Shown: positions 3,910 through 17,854 of the stretch, piece after piece
How positions within the stretch are numbered: position 1 is the stretch's first letter
Layout: every line of letters begins with the position of its first letter
Virus record (IMG/VR): IMGVR_UViG_3300043137_000253
Span: 1-20,279 of that record
Length of the DNA: 20,279 nt
Strand: one strand, 5' to 3'
Source of the DNA: a virus
Notes under the pieces: model-generated
What the model was told of the DNA's origin: nothing
Databases searched by the model: none
The model's input: the letters and a program-made list of their open reading frames with translations, nothing else
Program-made: the position numbers and the translations under genes

Positions 3910-5025
3910 TTAAGCGCCAGACAAACCGAAAATCATTCCGCATCCTTTTGGATTCCTGCACTCAAGTGTACCCTCTTCAACGATTTGACCGATGATAGAG
4001 TCACCCAGCTGACCGAGGTCAACTTCTTGCAGAGGACGCAAGCTAGCGTAGCTGAACCACATTGGGTCATACAAGAACGCTGTGAAGTTAGCTGCATTGT
4101 CTAAACCAGAAACAGCAGTATTAGAAATACCCATTACGTAGTTAGGAACAACCATGATGTCACCGAAGTCAGACATGTAGATTTCAACTGACTGACGGAG
4201 TTTACCGTCTGCGTCAATGTTACGGCGAACGTTACCGTCACCAGCATTAGAAGTGCTAGAACCTGCAGACTGAGCCTTAGCAGAGAACACACGACGGTTA
4301 GCAGGAGACAACATCAATTTAGTTGCCTTACCACCGTTTTCGTAGATGCCTTGCATTACTGTGTCAACGTGTGACAAAGCCAAAGAGACTTTATCAGCAG
4401 AAGTAACAGTAGTGAAAGTACCGCAAACACCACCACCTGGATTTGTAGGTGCTGTGTACTCAGAAGGAGTAGTTAACACGTTCAAAGCAGTAGCAGGAGT
4501 TGTGCTAGCAGCAGTGTAGTTAACCCAAGCTTGGTAGCCACCGAAAGTACGGGTGCCAGAACCGTTAGAAGATTTCCAACCGTTTACCAAGTCGAACTCA
4601 ACGTCACGGCGAAGTTCGGTACCACGCTTTTTGAGCTGGTAAGCGTATTCGTCAGCAACACCAGCTTGGTCAACAGCACGTTTAGTGCCAGTAACTGTAA
4701 CTGTTTTAGAGTTGATCTGTGTGTAGTTACCCAAACGTGTACGGAAGGGTTCAGCTGCTTGAGCTGCATTTTGTGTAGAATATGATACACCCTCGGCAAC
4801 AGGAGCAGAAGTTGGGGCTGCCAACTCGTCTGTTTGCCACTCGTGAAACACAGCCGTAGCTTTTGTCTTGCCGATAGAGGACAAGAAAGGTGTCTCATCA
4901 CGAGAGATCATAGAAATAAAGTTCGCCAAGTCTTCACGCTCACCAGCGTTGACAGCGTTACCAGTAGCAGATGCGCTACGTGCGGCAGCCTTAGGGCCAC
5001 CTGTTGCAAAAGTTTGTCCAGCCAT
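3910..5025 (-). CDS. Major capsid protein, SU10 type (DUF5309 family)
   Basis: This 371-aa protein starts at ATG 5025 behind AAAAGGAAA. Features I recognise from the DUF5309 / SU10 major capsid family are REDLANFISMISRDETPFL near residue 30, then HEWQTDELAAP, a TRLGNYTQINSKTVTVTGT segment, AVDQAGVADEYAYQLKKRG, the MLSPANRRVFS strand, VEIYMSDFGDIMVVPN and the C-terminal LRPLQEVDLGQLGDS with VEEGTLECRNPKGCGMIFG. The order and full length match a HK97-fold coat protein of this family. It would form the icosahedral shell around the scaffold encoded just upstream. The gene is flanked by the scaffold gene and a strong terminator. No separate prohead protease is seen in the window. Confidence 0.92.
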   Translation of the reverse strand: MAGQTFATGGPKAAARSASATGNAVNAGEREDLANFISMISRDETPFLSSIGKTKATAVFHEWQTDELAAPTSAPVAEGVSYSTQNAAQAAEPFRTRLGNYTQINSKTVTVTGTKRAVDQAGVADEYAYQLKKRGTELRRDVEFDLVNGWKSSNGSGTRTFGGYQAWVNYTAASTTPATALNVLTTPSEYTAPTNPGGGVCGTFTTVTSADKVSLALSHVDTVMQGIYENGGKATKLMLSPANRRVFSAKAQSAGSSTSNAGDGNVRRNIDADGKLRQSVEIYMSDFGDIMVVPNYVMGISNTAVSGLDNAANFTAFLYDPMWFSYASLRPLQEVDLGQLGDSIIGQIVEEGTLECRNPKGCGMIFGLSGA

Positions 5026-6855: not shown

Positions 6856-9111
6856 TTACATCATTGGGTTTTCACCAGCAGCCGCAGGACCAGCCTGTGG
6901 TTGAGGTGCTTGACTACCTGTAGGTTTACTTGCATCCATATGCAAGTCACCTTGAATAAAGGATTGTGCAAGTGTTAGGAGTTCTTTAACATCAGGGTGG
7001 GGAGGAGGTTCAACACCTTCTTTAGCCGCTTGAATATAAAGTTTACCCCATTCTTGGTAACTCTTGTCCAAAGCAACCATAAGCTGTTTGGTATTATCCT
7101 GCATAGCATTCTTAGCTTGTACATTAGTGAGATCAAGGGTTGCTTGATTCTGTGCTATAGTAAGCATCTTGATTTGTTCTTCAAGTTGCTTCTGCTTCTC
7201 CATTGCCGCCATTTCAGCTTCTCGAGACTTCTTAGCTTGTTCAATGAAATTAGGATCAGTGTAATCAACAAGGAAGTCAAGTGGATCAAGATCCATAGAC
7301 TCAATTGCCTTACACGCAATAGTTACTGCTGCTTGTGGGTTAACAGCACCACCAGCTCCTGCTTGTTGCAGTGCTGGAATAATCTGTTGACCAACAACAT
7401 TCATCTTCTTCATGATATTGCTGTTACTGTTTTCACCAACATCAACATCAACATAGAGCATCAAGTTACTTGGCAAAGTACCAGGATCAACTGACTTATA
7501 CAAGTCATTCTGATCATAGTAACCAACTTCTTGACCACGGAGTTTATCCCGCATTGTCTTGTAAATACCTTCACATAAACGTTTAAAACCTGTTTCAGCA
7601 AATCTACGAGCCATAAATTGAATACGTACTTGAGCCGCAGACATAGCTCTCTGCATCTTTTCTTCTGAGTTACCAGATACGTATAGCGTGTCGTTGAGAC
7701 CCTGAGCTGCTTTAGACAAACCAGTAGCTTGTTCTTTATGTAGTTGTAACAACTCAAGAACAGGAACTGTACCAGTACTGATAGTGTCTGGTGTCAAAGC
7801 CGCCACAGCATTGTTTGGATTACCGTTTGTGGCAATAATCTGTTTAGGCTTCATGTTCTGTAGAGCACTGAAGTCAACAACATTAGGGTCAGCAAGCTTA
7901 GGTGAGTAGTTAGTAAGATATACGTTCTCAATAAAACCACGCATAACTGCTGTTGAAGCAAGCGTAGTTGGACGAATCATATCTGCAACTGACAAACCAA
8001 AGAATTCGTGAGGTACTTCAAAGGGACAAAGAGTCGCCAATGGAATCATATCACAATCTTCTTCAAGGAGAATAGTTGAGCCAGCAATAATAAAGTGCTT
8101 TAACTCAGCAATACCGTCTCCATCACGGTCTACACGTAACCAACACTCAATAACAGTAAGTTGTCGATTAGCTTCTGACGGGAATAGCTCCCGTGAATTT
8201 CCCCCAAGCCAGTACTCTTCACCAACCAGACGCTTACGAGCAGCTTGCTCTTCGGTGTACTTGGTAGCCCAATCATAGCTACCGTCTCCAATGGCGTCCC
8301 AGTCGATATTCTCTGCTATGTCAGGGAAAAACTTTCTAACTTCAGAACGAGTCATGTCGATCTGAATACCCACAAATGCCGCATCATCAAGTGAGTGCGC
8401 ATCCCGTGTAATACGGAAACATTCTGGGTGTACATTCTTAATCAAGACACGAGTCTTGTTATGTTTCTTTTTAAGGCGAACATCTTTGTATACCATGTTG
8501 TATACAGCATTACCTTGTTCATCGGTACCTAGTTCTTGTTCATACTTAAGGTCACCAATGATTTCTACATTATCTTCAGATAACAAAAGATCTAGATTTT
8601 CTTGGCTGATAGAGTCAAACTCTTCAAACTGATAATCAAAATCTTCAATATATTCCCAACGGACAATACTATTCTTCCACAAAAGAGCAGACTTAACCCA
8701 TGTATTGAGAACTTCCCAACCAGGATTCTGCTTAAAGATTCCATAGTTAACAAGGTCAGAAGCTACTTTAGCTTCATGATACGCCTTAGGGGAATTACCA
8801 GCAGGGATAAACCTTGCAATCTTATTGTTGTTAAACATAAGTTCAGCAAGGATAGCTGTGTATCCTTCAATAGCTTCTACAGTGTCTGATGAGACAATCT
8901 GAGAAGCACCCTGAGGAGTCAGGTGGAACATTGGCATCATGCCGTATTCGTATGTGGCTTTCTGACGTTCACGAGCAAGGTCGGAACTATTCAAGAAGTC
9001 ACCAACAGAGTTCATTACACCCTGTTCGATCATGGCTAGGAGTTCATTGTCTCCTACCGGATCTTTATATCTATCCACAAAGCGGATAATATCTTTTGTC
9101 GAATCACTCAT
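6856..9111 (-). CDS. Portal protein
   Basis: The 751-aa protein starts at ATG 9111 behind AAAGG. It has the length and layout of the large P22-like portals of short-tailed phages. The N-terminal part has the clip/stem-approach region with YEYGMMPMFHL and WKNSIVRWEYIEDFDYQ; a mid segment has VIECWLRVDRDGDGIAELKH; and the core has PFEVPHEFFGLSVADMIRPT followed by STAVMRGFIENVYLTNYSPK and the helical crown segment AMSAAQVRIQFMARRFAETG. Residues about 630-700 are a Gln/Lys-rich coiled coil, and the end is Pro/Gln/Ala-rich. It would form the dodecameric DNA entry ring at one capsid vertex and dock with the large terminase. The gene order terminase, portal, scaffold, capsid supports this. Confidence 0.88.
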   Translation of the reverse strand: MSDSTKDIIRFVDRYKDPVGDNELLAMIEQGVMNSVGDFLNSSDLARERQKATYEYGMMPMFHLTPQGASQIVSSDTVEAIEGYTAILAELMFNNNKIARFIPAGNSPKAYHEAKVASDLVNYGIFKQNPGWEVLNTWVKSALLWKNSIVRWEYIEDFDYQFEEFDSISQENLDLLLSEDNVEIIGDLKYEQELGTDEQGNAVYNMVYKDVRLKKKHNKTRVLIKNVHPECFRITRDAHSLDDAAFVGIQIDMTRSEVRKFFPDIAENIDWDAIGDGSYDWATKYTEEQAARKRLVGEEYWLGGNSRELFPSEANRQLTVIECWLRVDRDGDGIAELKHFIIAGSTILLEEDCDMIPLATLCPFEVPHEFFGLSVADMIRPTTLASTAVMRGFIENVYLTNYSPKLADPNVVDFSALQNMKPKQIIATNGNPNNAVAALTPDTISTGTVPVLELLQLHKEQATGLSKAAQGLNDTLYVSGNSEEKMQRAMSAAQVRIQFMARRFAETGFKRLCEGIYKTMRDKLRGQEVGYYDQNDLYKSVDPGTLPSNLMLYVDVDVGENSNSNIMKKMNVVGQQIIPALQQAGAGGAVNPQAAVTIACKAIESMDLDPLDFLVDYTDPNFIEQAKKSREAEMAAMEKQKQLEEQIKMLTIAQNQATLDLTNVQAKNAMQDNTKQLMVALDKSYQEWGKLYIQAAKEGVEPPPHPDVKELLTLAQSFIQGDLHMDASKPTGSQAPQPQAGPAAAGENPMM

Positions 9112-10618: not shown

Positions 10619-12259
10619 CTATAACCAAGTGGTTTCTATTTGTTGATAGTTACCCATCTTCTGTGAGAAAGGTACTGTTGTGTTTGTTAGCCTATCCCCG
10701 TGAGTCCTGATAACCTCAAGGGCAATAGCAAGGGCAATAACCGTATCATCATTCTGACCTAGAATAGCGTTAGTCTTGCCTGTATCGTCTGCTACATAGT
10801 TCATCAGTTCACCGATAATAACTCTGGACGGAATCCAGATATCTTCCTGTTCAATAGCATTCTTCAAGAATCCAATAATAGCTGGTTTAGAGGCTGAAGT
10901 AGTTCTCCAACCAATTCTGCTACCTTCTTCTTTGGATACATTCGCCATCTTAGTCTGATAGTACATATTCAGGTAACCCATCTGTGTTAACCTGTTTAGT
11001 GTAGCAATACCCATACTGTTAGACTCTACAGCTAACAAAGCATTATTGTAGTACCTACCTAAATAAAATAGTAAATCGCCAAACTGACTAGGATCAATCG
11101 TATTATTTCTATAAACTGCGCAAACTTCTCTTCGTGCATTAATGACCACGGCTGTAGAATAATCCTTCCCAACACCCAGGCTAACGTCAGCACCAATAGC
11201 AAAAGCATCTTCAAAAGTAGGATACTTAAATATTTCAATCGATCCATCTCTTAAATCCTCCATCATAGAGGACTCAAAGTTAAATTCTCTCTTCGCTAAT
11301 ATTGGTTGTGGTACCAGCTTACTCAGCTTTTCAATGTTAAATACATTAGAGCCTGATACAATAAACGCTTCCTCAGGTGTTGCAGGATACTCTTGACGGA
11401 ACTTATCCTCACCACCCTCCGCAATCTTTAACCTTCTCCAGTATAACTGGTCATCAGTTAGATTGTACCTTGTAACTAATACTTCTTCTTCTGTTGTTCT
11501 TTCAAAACCTTCAGGAGCTTTCCTCTGATACTCTGTCATCAAGTACCACGGAACAAAGATAGCTATATAATCATTCTCACCCTTTACAGCTCCTTGCCAT
11601 AACCTGTGAAATGAATTACCTACTCCATTCGCTGTACTCTCAAGAATAACTTCGGTACCTTCCGCTTGAGAAATACCTTGGAATAAACCAGCCAAGATTT
11701 TTTCATCATGATTCCAGAAGGCTACCTCAGACAAGTGAGCAATAGTAGGAGTCGTTCCCCTACCCGCCTCAGGTGCACCAGCCGTGTATAGCCTGTACCC
11801 TGAATCATTATGCTCAAACATAATCTCTTTTGCATTAGACTTCTTTAACACTGGTCTGAAGGTATCAGACATGTTATAGATCGTATTTCTAGACATACCA
11901 AACAATGCATCACTGGTAGCGGCATCATGAGCCATAACTACTGACTTGTTGTAAGCATTAAAGTAACTCTTCCAGAATACTCGTCCTGTTGTGTATGTAC
12001 TTAAACCCATTTGTCGAGCTTTAAGAATAATAGCTCTGACTCTCCCTGTCTCCTTGAGTTGTTTCTCAAGAGCTTCATTCACAATCTTTTGAGCTTCATT
12101 AAACTCAAAGAATTGGAATCCCTTGGAGGAGTCCTTGGGTAAGATTTTAATTTGTTCTTTGGCGAATAATTCAAAGTCGCCTTTATAAGCAGAAAGTTTC
12201 TCCCGCTTTTTTAATTCCCTCAGAGCCTCTAGCTTATCAGAATTGTTTTGTTGTTTCAT
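10619..12259 (-). CDS. Terminase large subunit (TerL)
   Basis: The 546-aa protein carries the packaging ATPase and nuclease signatures. The Walker A variant ARQMGLST is at residues 81-88, the Walker B-like segment AHLSEVAFW at about 174-182, and the coupling motif STANG at 208-212. The C-terminal RNase H-like nuclease starts with AIGADVSLGVGKDYST (Asp at about 358) and continues with LAVESNSMGIA (Glu at about 412); the third acid is probably among NAILGQNDDTVIALA near the end. The length is usual for the family. The protein would cut concatemeric DNA and pump it through the portal. It is the first gene of the leftward late operon, with a promoter-like site about 25 bases upstream of its ATG and AGGT as ribosome-binding site. 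Confidence 0.95.
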   Translation of the reverse strand: MKQQNNSDKLEALRELKKREKLSAYKGDFELFAKEQIKILPKDSSKGFQFFEFNEAQKIVNEALEKQLKETGRVRAIILKARQMGLSTYTTGRVFWKSYFNAYNKSVVMAHDAATSDALFGMSRNTIYNMSDTFRPVLKKSNAKEIMFEHNDSGYRLYTAGAPEAGRGTTPTIAHLSEVAFWNHDEKILAGLFQGISQAEGTEVILESTANGVGNSFHRLWQGAVKGENDYIAIFVPWYLMTEYQRKAPEGFERTTEEEVLVTRYNLTDDQLYWRRLKIAEGGEDKFRQEYPATPEEAFIVSGSNVFNIEKLSKLVPQPILAKREFNFESSMMEDLRDGSIEIFKYPTFEDAFAIGADVSLGVGKDYSTAVVINARREVCAVYRNNTIDPSQFGDLLFYLGRYYNNALLAVESNSMGIATLNRLTQMGYLNMYYQTKMANVSKEEGSRIGWRTTSASKPAIIGFLKNAIEQEDIWIPSRVIIGELMNYVADDTGKTNAILGQNDDTVIALAIALEVIRTHGDRLTNTTVPFSQKMGNYQQIETTWL

Positions 12260-12604
12260 ATAACCTATGTAATAAAAAGTTTTCTCTATTATGTACCGGC
12301 TAACTAAGGAGCAGTGTCTGCGACCCTGTGTTGATTTATTTATAAAAATAATTCCAATAATTTTAGAAATGTAATCTTTTGTATACTTTTTTTCGGGTAC
12401 CCCTGCTTTTTATTGGGGGTGTTGTGTGGGAATGTCTTTGGAGAATTGTCGTGGGTAGAAGTCTTTGTGTGTGTTTAAAAGAATCCAGTGTTGGTTTGGC
12501 GTACCCTCTGTGGGTTTCCCTGCCCCCCTTGTTTTCCTTGCCGTGTCGGTGCGTGGCGCTGCCCGTCTCGGCTTTCCTTGTCCTGCGCTCTTTGGAGGTG
12601 TTCC
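12260..12604. other. Divergent intergenic region between late and early modules
   Basis: This stretch holds the leftward site A, an AT-rich part (12330-12390, with a weak TATACT at 12382 and no good -35) and, from about 12400, a G/T/C-rich part that passes into the adenine-depleted tract. No convincing gene was found here. It is where rightward early transcription should start, but I cannot name a promoter. A replication origin or packaging site could also lie here; nothing in the sequence decides that. Confidence 0.5.
12281..12308 (-). promoter_or_regulatory. Putative phage promoter for the late operon (site A)
   Basis: Read leftward the site is GTTAGCCGGTACATAATA followed by GAGAAA. It shares the core TAGYCGGWWCMTAATA with three other sites in the window (16232, 16653, 17245). 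It ends about 25 bases before the terminase ATG, where a transcript would be expected to start. The layout (about 18 bases ending AATAG, then purines) resembles SP6/T7-class promoters. The repeat is seen; the promoter function is inferred. Confidence 0.55.
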
Positions 12605-13192
12605 GTGGTTTCTTCTCTTTCTTCTTGGGTCTCTTCTCTTCCCGTCCTTGGCTCTGTGGCTCCGGCTGCTCGCCCGTCTCTTGCCGCTTCCGTTCCTCGT
12701 GGTTCTGTCTCTGCTCCCGTGTCTGTTGTTGCGGTTGCTTTGTCTGGTGCTGACGCTGTGTCTGTTGTTTGCTCTGACGGTCGTGTTCGTGTCTGCCGTG
12801 TCCCGTACGCTGTTCGTGCCCTTGGTCGTCCTGTGTCTCGTGACGCTGTGTTTGCTCGTTTGTCTGCTCGTGTTGGTGGCACTCCTGTTCGCTTTGTTGC
12901 CGCTTTTGGCTACTCTGCTGACTCTTGGTTCGTTGCTGTTGAAGCCGCTTGAGGGCTTTCTCGGTTGGCTCCTTTGTCGGGGTCTTCCGAGAGCGTCTTG
13001 CTCTACCTGCTCCTCGGGGTTTCTGGGGTTGGAGTTGTAATGTCTTCTTCTCTTGGCGCTTTGTTGCGTGCTAAATTGGAGGAGTCTGCTTTTGCTCCTC
13101 GTGTTCCTTTTGTTCGGGATGCGTCTGCTGTTGTGCCTGTTTGGTATGATGGTAGTACGTATTATCGGCTTGAGGCTGGGGAGCGTGGTATG
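12504..13192 (+). other. Adenine-depleted tract spanning two genes and their leader
   Basis: From 12504 to 12752 (249 bases) there is one adenine, at 12596, inside the SD sequence GGAGG. In the 12605 gene up to 12940 the only adenines are at 12753, 12777, 12807, 12843, 12881, 12912 and 12921, all in Asp, Tyr or Thr codons that require A. In the next gene 50 of the first 51 codons lack A at the third position; after 13192, 13 of the remaining 56 end in A. The boundary falls inside a gene, so this is a property of the nucleic acid, not of one protein. Confidence 0.9.
12605..12952 (+). CDS. Hypothetical early protein, A-depleted paralog of the 14494 gene
   Basis: A GTG start at 12605 follows GGAGG (12594-12598) by six bases and gives 115 aa. 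The C-terminal half aligns with the protein at 14494-14778: SRD...SARVGGTPVRF against SRN...IARGLVGKQVRF, and GYSADSWFVAVEA against GWSSDTWFNEIVEA, with about 11 identities in the last 20 positions. That homology and the fact that adenines occur only where Asp, Tyr or Thr codons need them show that this frame is translated. The N-terminal 40 residues are Ser/Ala/Pro/Val-rich and uncertain. The frame is open further upstream to 12488, and a start there is possible but lacks an SD site. The function is unknown; it is the first rightward gene after the divergent junction. Confidence 0.75.
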   Translation: MVSSLSSWVSSLPVLGSVAPAARPSLAASVPRGSVSAPVSVVAVALSGADAVSVVCSDGRVRVCRVPYAVRALGRPVSRDAVFARLSARVGGTPVRFVAAFGYSADSWFVAVEAA

Positions 13193-14294: not shown

Positions 14295-14408
14295 ATGTAC
14301 TTAGTATACTGTAACAAAACAAACAAGTTAATCGACAAAGTAGTATCAGCCATTGACTTACTCAAGTACAAACCAGAAGATGTAACGATTCACATCGTTC
14401 ACCTGTAA
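14295..14408 (+). CDS. Very small hypothetical protein, 37 aa
   Basis: ATG 14295 starts one base after the previous stop (TAGTATG), with AAAGG about six bases upstream inside the end of that gene. The peptide is MYLVYCNKTNKLIDKVVSAI then DLLKYKPEDVTIHIVHL. The strand-helix-strand pattern looks protein-like, and the coupling to the preceding gene is typical of this cluster. A longer reading from 14139 in the same frame overlaps the preceding gene fully and has no ribosome-binding site. Confidence 0.6.
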   Translation: MYLVYCNKTNKLIDKVVSAIDLLKYKPEDVTIHIVHL

Positions 14409-14419
14409 TCACCTGCTCT

Positions 14420-14460
14420 TCTCGGGCTTACGGAGAGACCTCTTGGGGTAAGTACCAAGA
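14420..14460 (+). promoter_or_regulatory. Hairpins in the 85-base gap before the 14494 gene
   Basis: TCTTGG (14441-14446) and CCAAGA (14455-14460) form a six-pair stem with an eight-base loop; a weaker TCTC/GAGA stem lies just before. There is no T-tail. Its role is unknown. Confidence 0.3.
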
Positions 14461-14493
14461 TTTCATTAACAGTCATCACCAAAAGGATCTAAC

Positions 14494-15042: not shown

Positions 15043-15246
15043 ATGGCATTCCTAAGACAGTCTTTCGGGAAATACACTCTAGATCTCTCTGACAAAGAGC
15101 TAGACGCTATCACATTAGCTATGGCTAACATAGGTGTCTTCACAGAAGTGGAGAAAGGTATATATCATCAACTAACAAAGTACAGGGATTACTTGAAAAT
15201 GGAAGATAAATGGTACAGAGAACAGGAAAAGGAGTTGGATAAGTAA
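15043..15246 (+). CDS. Hypothetical helical protein, 67 aa
   Basis: ATG 15043 starts two bases after the preceding stop, with GGAGGG about ten bases upstream. The sequence begins AFLRQSFGKYTLDLSDKELD, with a helical middle (AITLAMANIGVFTEVEKGIY) and a charged end (KMEDKWYREQEKELDK). The pattern LxLSxxExxxIxxAL...xYxxLxxYxxxL is typical of short phage proteins. The function is unknown. Confidence 0.75.
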   Translation: MAFLRQSFGKYTLDLSDKELDAITLAMANIGVFTEVEKGIYHQLTKYRDYLKMEDKWYREQEKELDK

Positions 15247-15249
15247 CCA

Positions 15250-15404
15250 CAAGACACTCTCTCAAGACATACAACAGTATAACTGTTGCCATCCTCTCAA
15301 GAATGTAATCGAAAGACTACATTCGCTGAGAAACAGGCGAGAACTGTGGGAAGTCTTGAGGGATTTTTGTGGGTGAAAAACCTGAACGTTCTTTTTGAAC
15401 GTTT
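15250..15404 (+). ncRNA. Candidate structured RNA with terminator-like 3' end
   Basis: The 194-base gap between genes contains CAACAGT-ATA-ACTGTTG (15272-15288), GAATGTA/TACATTC (15301-15324), a weak ACAG/CTGT (15333-15347) and AACGTTC-TTTTT-GAACGTT (15385-15403). CTCAAGAC (15261-15268) can pair with GTCTTGAG (15353-15360) to close the first hairpins into one structure. A second element, CTCTCAAGA (15294-15302), competes for the same partner (TCTTGAGGG, 15354-15362), which is followed by GGATTTTT. The pairings are seen; whether an independent RNA, a riboswitch-like attenuator or just a leader is made is not known. Confidence 0.45.
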
Positions 15405-15440: not shown

Positions 15441-15662
15441 ATGCAAGCCATCACAAGACGCACCAAACCAGTAGCCTTCCAACCCTTTGAGCTAACAGTC
15501 TCAATCACCACCCGAGAAGAATTCAATGATATGATTTCATTGTTCTCATACTACACGGACATCCCAAATGTAACTCACACAAAGGATACCGAAATGCACA
15601 AACGTATGACACTCATATGTATGTCCATCTATGACGCACTCGAAGCAGAAGATCAATACTAA
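15441..15662 (+). CDS. Hypothetical protein, 73 aa
   Basis: ATG 15441 follows AAAGGTATAT. The protein has a strand-rich front (TRRTKPVAFQPFELTVSITT), a helix (REEFNDMISLFSYYTDIPNV) and an acidic helical end (MSIYDALEAEDQY). The middle resembles the second part of the following protein in outline: ELTVSITTREEFNDMIS against EYTITMSEEDALTILNG. The two may be old tandem relatives. It begins a tight run of four genes. Function unknown. Confidence 0.75.
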   Translation: MQAITRRTKPVAFQPFELTVSITTREEFNDMISLFSYYTDIPNVTHTKDTEMHKRMTLICMSIYDALEAEDQY

Positions 15663-15663
15663 T

Positions 15664-15870
15664 ATGAAAATCTCCAAAGACACCCAAATCGAATACACCA
15701 TCACAATGTCTGAAGAAGACGCATTAACGATTTTGAACGGCTTAGGTCGTTTAGACTACCATGAATTAGCCAGGCTATCAGACAACCTAAAATTTGGCTC
15801 TGTGATGAATAACCTATATGAAACGCTTGTTAGTAAAATCAAACGAGGTTCAATCCTGAAAGACTCATAA
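15664..15870 (+). CDS. Hypothetical protein, 68 aa
   Basis: ATG 15664 begins one base after the preceding stop (TAATATG). A longer reading to 15631 would overlap the preceding gene and has no better site. The sequence starts MKISKDTQIEYTITMSEEDA, then a helix (LTILNGLGRLDYHELARLSD) and an end LYETLVSKIKRGSILKDS. The stop TAA shares its last base with the next ATG. The ITMSEEDALTILNGL segment is typical of short helical phage proteins; no function is known. Confidence 0.75.
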   Translation: MKISKDTQIEYTITMSEEDALTILNGLGRLDYHELARLSDNLKFGSVMNNLYETLVSKIKRGSILKDS

Positions 15871-16028
15871 TGCACTCTGCAGCACAAATCTATACAGACT
15901 TAATCAAAAAGATTAAATCTCAAGTAAAGTCTGAAATATCCGTAGTATTTGACGATACAACAGGTATCCAAAAGGCTTTCCTTAAAGGCAAACTATTGTG
16001 GATCAAGAAAGTGAGATTAGATAAATGA
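15870..16028 (+). CDS. Small basic hypothetical protein, 52 aa
   Basis: The ATG overlaps the previous stop by one base (TAATG), and its own stop overlaps the next ATG (ATGA), so it sits in a translationally coupled chain. The sequence is MHSAAQIYTDLIKKIKSQVK, a strand EISVVFDDTTGIQKAFLKGK and an end LLWIKKVRLDK. It is Lys-rich, with one helix and three strands likely. The family is unknown. Confidence 0.7.
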   Translation: MHSAAQIYTDLIKKIKSQVKSEISVVFDDTTGIQKAFLKGKLLWIKKVRLDK

Positions 16029-16213
16029 ACAACCCCTTATGGATATGCGTTGATGAACGTTTTTGCACAGAGTTCGGTATCACAATCGAACAATGTATTG
16101 AAAGATACAGAAAATCAGTGGATGAAAATGTAGATATCTCTAAACTAACATTCTACTCATTAGCTCAACCTTATGAAGTAGAAGTACTCTACGTGTTAAA
16201 GGAGAAAAAGTAA
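16025..16213 (+). CDS. Hypothetical protein, 62 aa
   Basis: The start overlaps the preceding stop as ATGA. The protein begins MNNPLWICVDERFCTEFGIT and goes on IEQCIERYRKSVDENVDISK to an end YEVEVLYVLKEKK. It could be one alpha/beta domain with a central helix carrying the Cys and Arg residues. It closes the coupled chain starting at 15441 and is followed by a putative promoter site and the HNH gene. Not recognised. Confidence 0.72.
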   Translation: MNNPLWICVDERFCTEFGITIEQCIERYRKSVDENVDISKLTFYSLAQPYEVEVLYVLKEKK

Positions 16214-16231
16214 AAGACTATCTAGTGGGAA

Positions 16232-16255
16232 CGCTGTTAGTCGGTACCTAATAAG
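16232..16255 (+). promoter_or_regulatory. Putative phage promoter before the HNH gene (site B)
   Basis: The site reads GTTAGTCGGTACCTAATAAG, matching the core of site A (TAGCCGGTACATAATA) with only two changes. It lies 16 bases before the ATG of the HNH nuclease gene and points into it. Confidence 0.5.
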
Positions 16256-16270
16256 AAAGAAAGGAAGTAT

Positions 16271-16669
16271 ATGGCTAACAGATACGTTACTGGTGATAGA
16301 CCAGAAATATGTATTTCAGATGGATGTAATAACAAAACTACTATAACCAGTAGTTATGGAAAACCTAAATACAATTCTAGATGTAGAAAATGTAAAGACA
16401 ACCTATCTAAATACAAAATAACAACTCCAGAAAGAAATAAACTACTAGAAGACCAAAACAATGAATGTAAAATTTGTAAACACACAATAAGTTTTACAGG
16501 TGTAATAGGTGTAAACGGAGACAGTGCAGTAATAGACCACTGTCACACAACAGGTAAAATAAGGGGAATACTATGTAACACATGTAACGTAGGACTAGGA
16601 AAATTCAAAGATGACAAAGAACTACTAGAAAAGGCTATGAAGTATATAGAAAATTCAGCCGGAACCTAA
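16271..16669 (+). CDS. HNH endonuclease, endonuclease VII type
   Basis: The 132-aa protein starts at ATG 16271 behind AGGAAG. Residues 66-69 (CKIC) and 102-105 (CNTC) supply the four zinc-binding cysteines that frame the HNH core, and DHCHTTGKIRGILC at 89-102 carries the catalytic Asp/His pair, followed by Asn106. This is the recombination endonuclease VII domain. The N-terminal part has two more Cys pairs (C14/C19 and C38/C41), perhaps a second zinc knuckle for DNA binding. It may be a free-standing homing nuclease, because its codon use (AGA, ATA, AAA, GTA) is more AT-rich than that of its neighbours and it is bracketed by copies of the promoter-like site. Holliday-junction resolvase is the alternative. 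Confidence 0.88.
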   Translation: MANRYVTGDRPEICISDGCNNKTTITSSYGKPKYNSRCRKCKDNLSKYKITTPERNKLLEDQNNECKICKHTISFTGVIGVNGDSAVIDHCHTTGKIRGILCNTCNVGLGKFKDDKELLEKAMKYIENSAGT

Positions 16670-16738: not shown

Positions 16739-16779
16739 AAGAGAACATCAATAGGGTATTTCCCTAAAGACATTCTCTT
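16739..16779. terminator. Convergent (bidirectional) terminator hairpin
   Basis: AAGAGAA (16739-16745) pairs with TTCTCTT (16773-16779), and inside it TAGGG (16752-16756) pairs with CCCTA (16762-16766). A-runs upstream and T-rich bases downstream allow function on both strands, as expected between the rightward HNH gene and the leftward 16798 gene. GACATTCTCTTA is repeated directly at 16769 and 16782. Confidence 0.6.
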
Positions 16780-16797
16780 ATGACATTCTCTTAAGAC

Positions 16798-17294: not shown

Positions 17295-17798
17295 ATGACA
17301 CAAGCAACAAACACACCTAACATCATCATCAAAGACGTAGCCTTGTTCTGGGCTAAGTTAGACAAACCTGTATCACCATTCGGTGTTGATCAGTATGAGT
17401 TACAGATTCAAGGTGAAAAGAAACGTGAGAAAGAGTTCTCTCAATTCGGTAAAGTTAAAGCCATTGAAGGCGGTAAAATCTCTGTTAATCTTAAGAAGAA
17501 AGCCTTTAAGAAAGATGGTAGTGATGCCGCCAAAGTTCGTGTAGTTGATGCAGGTAAAAAAGAGCTTAATCCAACATTAATCGGTAATGGTTCTATCGGT
17601 AACGTTATGGTGTATTGCTCTCCATATGAAATCAAACTGCCTAACGGTAAAATTAGTAAGTCAGGTATTTCTACCATGTTAGTTGCTGTTCAAGTAACTG
17701 ATCTTGTTCGTTATGAACGTAAATCTGAGAACTTTGTTGACTTCGATGTTGAAGGTGCTTCTGTTGATACAGAAGTTACTGAAGAACCAATGTTCTAA
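17295..17798 (+). CDS. Single-stranded DNA-binding protein, T7 gp2.5-like
   Basis: The 167-aa protein starts at ATG 17295 behind TAGGAAAATATC. The fold pattern is the OB-type domain of the gp2.5 / DUF2815 kind: DVALFWAKLDKPVSPFGVDQ at the front, a basic middle (GKISVNLKKKAFKKDGSDAA), GNGSIGNVMVYCSPYEIK and STMLVAVQVTDLVRYE. The tail is acidic and ends in phenylalanine (DTEVTEEPMF), as in T7 gp2.5, where the tail contacts the replication proteins. It would coat single-stranded DNA during replication and recombination. It stands alone between a divergent region and a strong terminator, suggesting it is expressed as its own unit. T7 gp2.5 is longer, about 230 residues. Confidence 0.8.
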   Translation: MTQATNTPNIIIKDVALFWAKLDKPVSPFGVDQYELQIQGEKKREKEFSQFGKVKAIEGGKISVNLKKKAFKKDGSDAAKVRVVDAGKKELNPTLIGNGSIGNVMVYCSPYEIKLPNGKISKSGISTMLVAVQVTDLVRYERKSENFVDFDVEGASVDTEVTEEPMF

Positions 17799-17807
17799 AT
17801 TATAATT

Positions 17808-17854
17808 ATCCCTTGTGATAGTCTCTAAAGAGTCTGTCATGAGGGATTTTTATT
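17808..17854 (+). terminator. Strong terminator after the SSB gene
   Basis: ATCCCT (17808-17813) pairs with AGGGAT (17842-17847), and the stem continues inward through TGTGATAG/CTGTCATG with a few G-T pairs and one mismatch to TCTC/GAGA at the loop. TTTTTATTT follows. The stem is about 16 pairs long, so this should be an efficient stop. Confidence 0.85.

Follow-up and report, generated by a model that had tools for sequence, protein, structure and literature searches.

What is the multi-hairpin region that separates two small genes in an uncultivated virus of bacteria, and what might it do to the transcripts that pass through it? The window, i.e. the whole stretch of DNA that was analysed, is the 20,279-base virus record IMGVR_UViG_3300043137_000253, and an earlier note made from its sequence had suggested a new structured RNA at this junction. 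The window carries leftward late genes and many small rightward genes; the genes that orient the reader are the following.

2-2263, leftward, late: tail fibre gene
3910-5025, leftward, late: major head protein gene
6856-9111, leftward, late: portal gene
10619-12259, leftward, late: large terminase gene
16271-16669, rightward: endonuclease VII-like gene
17295-17798, rightward: Gp2.5-like ssDNA-binding protein gene

The closest isolate by terminase was Roseobacter phage CRP-7 (60% identity), described as a podovirus of 58.1 kb with a distant T7-like RNA polymerase (PMC6918029). A single-subunit RNA polymerase (PF00940) was detected in all five of the larger relatives searched, and the same search of the window fragment itself detected none. 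Before the rightward operon, positions 12450-13040 form an unusual T/G/C-rich, strand-biased stretch whose + strand is open in several frames.

The junction element, designated E1, occupies about positions 15255-15370 of the + strand and consists, together with the adjoining leader, of these parts.

15259-15268, +: 5' arm of the outer helix P1, CTCTCAAGAC, 12 nt past the stop codon of the ORF at 15043-15246
15272-15288, +: hairpin CAACAG-TATAA-CTGTTG (arms 15272-15277 and 15283-15288), present, among the listed copies, in the window copy only
15294-15302, +: second 5' unit, CTCTCAAGA, the competing element of the earlier note
15303-15322, +: optional hairpin ATGTA/TACAT (arms 15303-15307 and 15318-15322), a group-specific insert
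15322-15341, +: hairpin P4, TTCGC-loop-GCGAG (arms 15322-15326 and 15337-15341)
15343-15352, +: inner 3' unit, which is the 3' arm of helix P2, ACTGTGGGAA in the window and CYTGAGGGAA in most relatives
15353-15362, +: 3' arm of P1, GTCTTGAGGG
15364-15368, +: T-run TTTTT directly 3' of P1
15369-15440, +: leader of the next gene, with a hairpin AACGTTC/GAACGTT (15385-15391 and 15397-15403) that is absent from some relatives

The local stems and the closing pairing described in the earlier note were all recovered: CTCAAGAC (15261-15268) is complementary to GTCTTGAG (15353-15360), and this helix lengthens to 10 pairs, including one U-G, between CTCTCAAGAC (15259-15268) and GTCTTGAGGG (15353-15362). 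The region folded with an MFE of −58.4 kcal/mol (z −5.08), which was equalled by 0 of 200 shuffles. As the minus strand was likewise structured (z −5.33), energy alone cannot assign the strand. In the predicted window fold the CAACAG 5' arm (15272-15277) pairs with the inner 3' unit, and the second CTCTCAAGA (15294-15302), which is able to pair with TCTTGAGGG (15354-15362), takes TGAGA (15327-15331) as its partner instead; the TTCGC/GCGAG helix of P4 had a probability near 0 in this copy. The absence of a tRNA match and of a hammerhead core, both stated before, agreed with the searches: ARAGORN found 0 tRNA or tmRNA genes in the window, and Rfam, hammerhead ribozymes included, gave 0 matches at the gathering score, either for the window or for 17 loci with relatives, so that the proposed search against RNA family models returned no known family. 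Two sub-threshold Rfam matches in the region (E 2.8 and 7.8) were at chance level, with E values allowed up to 10.

When the downstream gene, the terminase, the upstream gene and the P4 pattern were used as queries, E1 turned up at this junction in about 27 related viral contigs, giving 23 distinct sequences when the window is counted. Not included were L024 and three P4-pattern matches inside apparent coding regions (L093, L095 and L106). At the start of the L024 locus the contig end has a partial E1, after which the sequence runs in reverse orientation; the contig was probably folded back on itself in assembly. A covariance model detected one strong copy in each of 10 out of 10 close contigs; strong copies were lacking from 10 out of 10 more distant contigs chosen by a terminase identity of about 82-86%, where the best matches had E values of 0.24 and 1.0, and a wider E1 DNA pattern run across viral_contigs retrieved no additional contigs; E1 is thus confined to one clade as far as searched. 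Blastn of E1 against sequenced phages gave short chance-level matches only, the E1 model gave no strong match in CRP-7 in a run made without a positive control, and the exact pattern of P4 plus inner arm had 0 matches in the cellular contigs of genome_contigs. A literature search found no report of E1 among the papers listed, and a term search of the CRP-7 paper (PMC6918029) found no promoter, terminator, non-coding or structured RNA.

The copies share a common plan, which reads on the + strand: P1 5' arm, short bulge, P2 5' arm, optional insert hairpin, P4, P2 3' arm, P1 3' arm and ATTT[TC]+. The consensus arms are CTCTCARGAC or a diverged unit for P1 5', CYTGAGGGAA for P2 3' and GTCYTGAGGG for P1 3', and the consensus of P4 is TTYGC - UGWGANNNAG - GCGAGA. 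ATTT[TC]+ follows P1 immediately on the + strand in 23 of 23 homologs, a count that, like the run length, is conditional on the ATTT required by the search pattern; with this condition dropped, nhmmer added no other full-length copy from the loci except L024 and L002-type duplicates. Some relatives have only a short U-run (TTTCT, TTTTC). With these homologs, and with + strand z values below −2 in 22 of the 23 (L062 folds poorly, z −1.5), the idea of a conserved structured RNA beside a T-run was borne out.

The E1 arms are mutually similar 10-base units, and for this reason alternative pairings exist. With the 5' unit placed as in MAFFT alignment A1, 16 of the 23 sequences pair at 9-10 of 10 positions of the outer 3' unit, and 15 pair at all 8 positions of the inner unit. 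Partition-function folds usually had the outer and inner arms paired simultaneously, with different upstream units, with a mean outer-arm pairing of 0.89 (n=23; 0.42-0.45 in L062) and a mean P4 probability of at least 0.6 in 21 of 23 copies, the exceptions being the window (about 0) and L015 (0.04). The two competing pairings of the earlier note therefore stand as alternative partners; most sequences are able to carry the nested inner and outer helices at once, so that the pairings need not exclude each other. Internal loops interrupt the continuous helix in several copies, and some copies have folds of about 20 bp.

Conservation and pairing were then read from the alignments. Between pairs of copies among the 23 homologs, the P4 arms were 97% identical and the UGWGA loop part 93%, compared with 67% identity at the third codon positions of the upstream gene. 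In A1, 93-95% of cells pair, against 24-63% after sliding by one to three columns. Covariance analysis with homologs, which the earlier note had proposed as a check and made part of its refuting condition, gave a negative result on A1, an alignment not fitted to the structure. The A1 covariation score was reached by 337 of 500 shuffles for the outer and 284 of 500 for the inner helix, no better than chance; the copies differ too little from one another, and in some groups MAFFT puts the inserts in the wrong place, so that A1 and A2 understate pairing there, and A2 was not counted. A hand register, itself fitted to pairing and hence biased towards it, had 154 Watson-Crick and 22 G-U among 198 cells of P1 (20 of 23 copies) and 119 Watson-Crick and 19 G-U among 170 cells of P2 (17 of 23 copies); both sides of the pair had changed at position 5 and position 7 of P1 and at position 9 of P2. 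The strand signal is less affected by this bias: 41 G-U against 9 A-C cells in the hand register points to the + strand as the folded RNA. In per-sequence folds the + strand MFE was below that of the − strand in 21 of 23 copies, and its z was the lower in 20 of 23.

The position of E1 at the gene junction was equally constant. Relative to the upstream stop codon, every one of the 23 copies has the first base of its P1 5' arm at −5 to +13 nt, and the upstream protein is 41-80% identical to that of the window in the other 22. The next start codon follows the end of P1 by 75-80 nt in 18 of the 23 copies and by 96 nt in one, while the script found no start codon in four. The next gene varies: a 73-aa gene follows directly in the window and in L062, and another small Cys-rich gene comes first in many others. 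A stop-proximal site combined with a differing next gene argues for the position of a terminator or processing signal rather than of a regulator of one gene. P4 lies 19 to 75 nt from the upstream stop codon. Short ORFs are present in the region; a coding role for E1 was considered and set aside, since this distance varies by non-multiples of three and a kept reading frame is thus unlikely.

When the 15 nt after the stop codon were masked in the folding, as by a ribosome, mean pairing of the outer 3' arm fell from 0.89 to 0.23 and that of P4 only from 0.87 to 0.84 (n=23). The effect was weak in the window, L010, L011, L017 and L023, where pairing was still 0.6-0.8; in the window copy outer-arm pairing decreased from 1.00 to 0.69 only. 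In Escherichia coli, ribosomes repress terminators located a few bp past a stop codon, and shifting the stop codon from 28 to 5 bp before the terminator reportedly lowered efficiency from about 90% to below 10% (PMC4824070). The terminator that the T7 genome itself carries is reported to be inefficient (PMC9157156). Taken with the masked folds, these accounts make a leaky, ribosome-sensitive terminator a reasonable model. Terminators commonly stand just after stop codons, so that this location is by itself no demonstration of coupling, and ribosome coupling may fail to apply with a fast phage polymerase.

We give an even chance to E1, at a gene junction of the rightward operon, acting in cis as an intrinsic terminator or attenuator that sits near a stop codon and lets some transcription read through. 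As the RNA emerges, P4, then P2 and then P1 would zip into one irregular hairpin, and the complete helix at the U-run would stop the polymerase in a fraction of passages. A ribosome terminating upstream would cover the P1 5' arm, leaving P1 open while P4 persists, as in the masked folds, and this might serve regulation: with a ribosome close behind, read-through would follow, and otherwise termination or protection of the 3' end. Because the P1 5' arm is near the stop codon, where a ribosome would hold P1 open, termination is probably partial, and partial termination at E1 would set the ratio of upstream to downstream gene expression. Of the attenuator or riboswitch design put forward earlier, the attenuator or terminator half is accordingly plausible and the best reading; the riboswitch half found no support, there being no Rfam match and the downstream genes being different.

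The main rival, rather unlikely in our judgement, is a processing hairpin of the RNase III type, in which host RNase III would cut the irregular helix and thereby separate and stabilise early mRNAs. Long, bulged, irregular helices between small genes in a phage group with a T7-type polymerase would suit such a site, as would a placement of E1 beside the upstream stop codon that all 23 copies share, but the kept U-run after P1 is unnecessary for cleavage, and the internal loops of several copies shorten the continuous helix. Termination and RNase III processing are compatible, not exclusive.

A conserved P4 loop is unnecessary for a plain terminator. The P4 arms (97%) and the UGWGA loop part (93%) are among the most conserved stretches of the element and could be recognised by a phage or host protein acting in anti-termination or repression; we regard a binding site of this kind as doubtful, as P4 is missing from the predicted ensemble of the window, Rfam gave no match and the partner protein is only hypothetical. 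A stable trans-acting small RNA, processed from the junction or started in it, would agree with the compact and stable fold, but no promoter of its own was identified and all copies lie very near the upstream stop codon, which makes this reading improbable. Equally improbable is a translation-coupled attenuator that discriminates between polymerases: a ribosome at the stop codon would hold P1 open for the slow, ribosome-followed host polymerase, which would read through, and the single-subunit phage polymerase, outrunning the ribosomes, would terminate. If this were true, the downstream early genes would be turned off once the phage takes over transcription. A riboswitch or leader attenuator of the next gene is very unlikely, despite the alternative partners beside the U-run and the spacing of 75-80 nt between P1 and the following start codon in 18 of 23 copies, since the gene downstream is not the same in relatives, as would be expected of a gene-specific cis-regulator, and no Rfam riboswitch matched.

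As a leaky terminator or attenuator, E1 would add a conserved control point to the expression map of the CRP-7-related aquatic phage group, which is almost without isolates, and the kept spacing between stop codon and terminator (23 of 23) may bear on the coupling of translation and termination in phages with their own polymerase.

A promoter-like motif, TATTAGGTACCGACTA, was found in the window at 12287(+), 17227(+), 16253(−) and, in weaker form, 16671(−). It is repeated on both strands in relatives carrying the T7-type RNA polymerase and, judged by this recurrence, is probably the promoter of the phage polymerase. P4 had also been considered as such a promoter and was rejected, the recurring motif being a different one. 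E1 lies about 3 kb downstream of the 12287(+) copy, and because the leftward copy at 16253 stands among rightward genes, late transcription may run antisense through E1. No near-consensus phage-type promoter was found in the window on the + strand for the genes at 15441-16669; lacking a promoter of their own, these genes would be silenced by strong termination at E1. Between converging genes, positions 16750-16797 hold a tandem GACATTCTCTTATGACATTCTCTTAAGAC similar to the 5' units of E1, and in L007 one GACATTCTCTTATGACATTCTCTTAAGAC-type unit is an arm of an AAGAGAA...TTCTCTT hairpin.

The window has a second candidate terminator:

17808-17851, +: simple terminator-like hairpin ATCCCTTGTGATAG...CTGTCATGAGGGATTTTTATTT, after the ssDNA-binding protein gene

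The hairpin ends in TGAGGGATTTTTATTT in the window and is also present in the 11 related loci listed, of which two have TAAGGGATTT. Like E1, it has TGAGGGATTTTT or a near form at its end and comes right after a stop codon; unlike E1, it has a near-perfect simple stem, a small loop and a longer U-rich tail, ATTTTTATTT.

A neighbouring element, E0, was seen upstream of E1:

14408-14462, +: compact element just past a stop codon

E0 consists of a stem GCTC/GGGC whose loop TTCTC pairs with a downstream GAGAG to form a pseudoknot, followed by a hairpin CTTGG-GGTAAGTA-CCAAG. In 24 aligned copies from close and distant relatives, a subset of those found, the stem showed paired changes at two positions and the middle pseudoknot pair was U-A in 15 and A-U in 9. 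In all, 99.7% of cells pair, and the covariation was 0.201 against 0.095 in shuffles, none of 500 being as high, for a structure chosen after viewing the alignment and with shuffles that ignore relatedness. The exact pattern occurred in 61 stretches of viral contigs. E0 is present in two copies in L071, L074 and L077, and the genes downstream of it differ. Rfam returned nothing beyond chance level for E0, blastn against the phage collection gave no match, and neither did the E0 model in CRP-7. On these comparative grounds E0 is a strong candidate for a new phage RNA family, a better one than E1. A kinship between P4 of E1 and E0, which share TTCNC...GN'GAGA, found no support: the E0 model gave no match at E1, local alignment scores were reached by 11 to 121 of 500 shuffles in the 7 of 23 copies tried, and by a rough estimate the motif is expected about 0.7 times by chance in the window.

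How, then, does E1 compare with known systems? A stable stem directly before a U-rich tract marks a canonical terminator and is present in E1, with varying stem strength, whereas the canonical loop of 3-8 nt is replaced by the 84 nt that P1 encloses in the window. A simple terminator scan of the window did not include E1 among the sites found, because this loop is far beyond the 3-8 nt limit. As modelled here, E1 is terminator-like in its working and outside the canonical terminator class. It resembles intrinsic (Rho-independent) terminators and class I terminators of T7-type RNA polymerases in having a hairpin followed immediately by a U-run just past a stop codon, and differs from them in an outer stem that holds a large structured loop with a conserved inner hairpin, and in a U-run that is partly short. 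The RNase III sites between T7 early genes are irregular hairpins as well, at which cutting separates and stabilises the early mRNAs; E1 shares with them the irregular hairpin between small genes and differs in ending on a conserved U-run.
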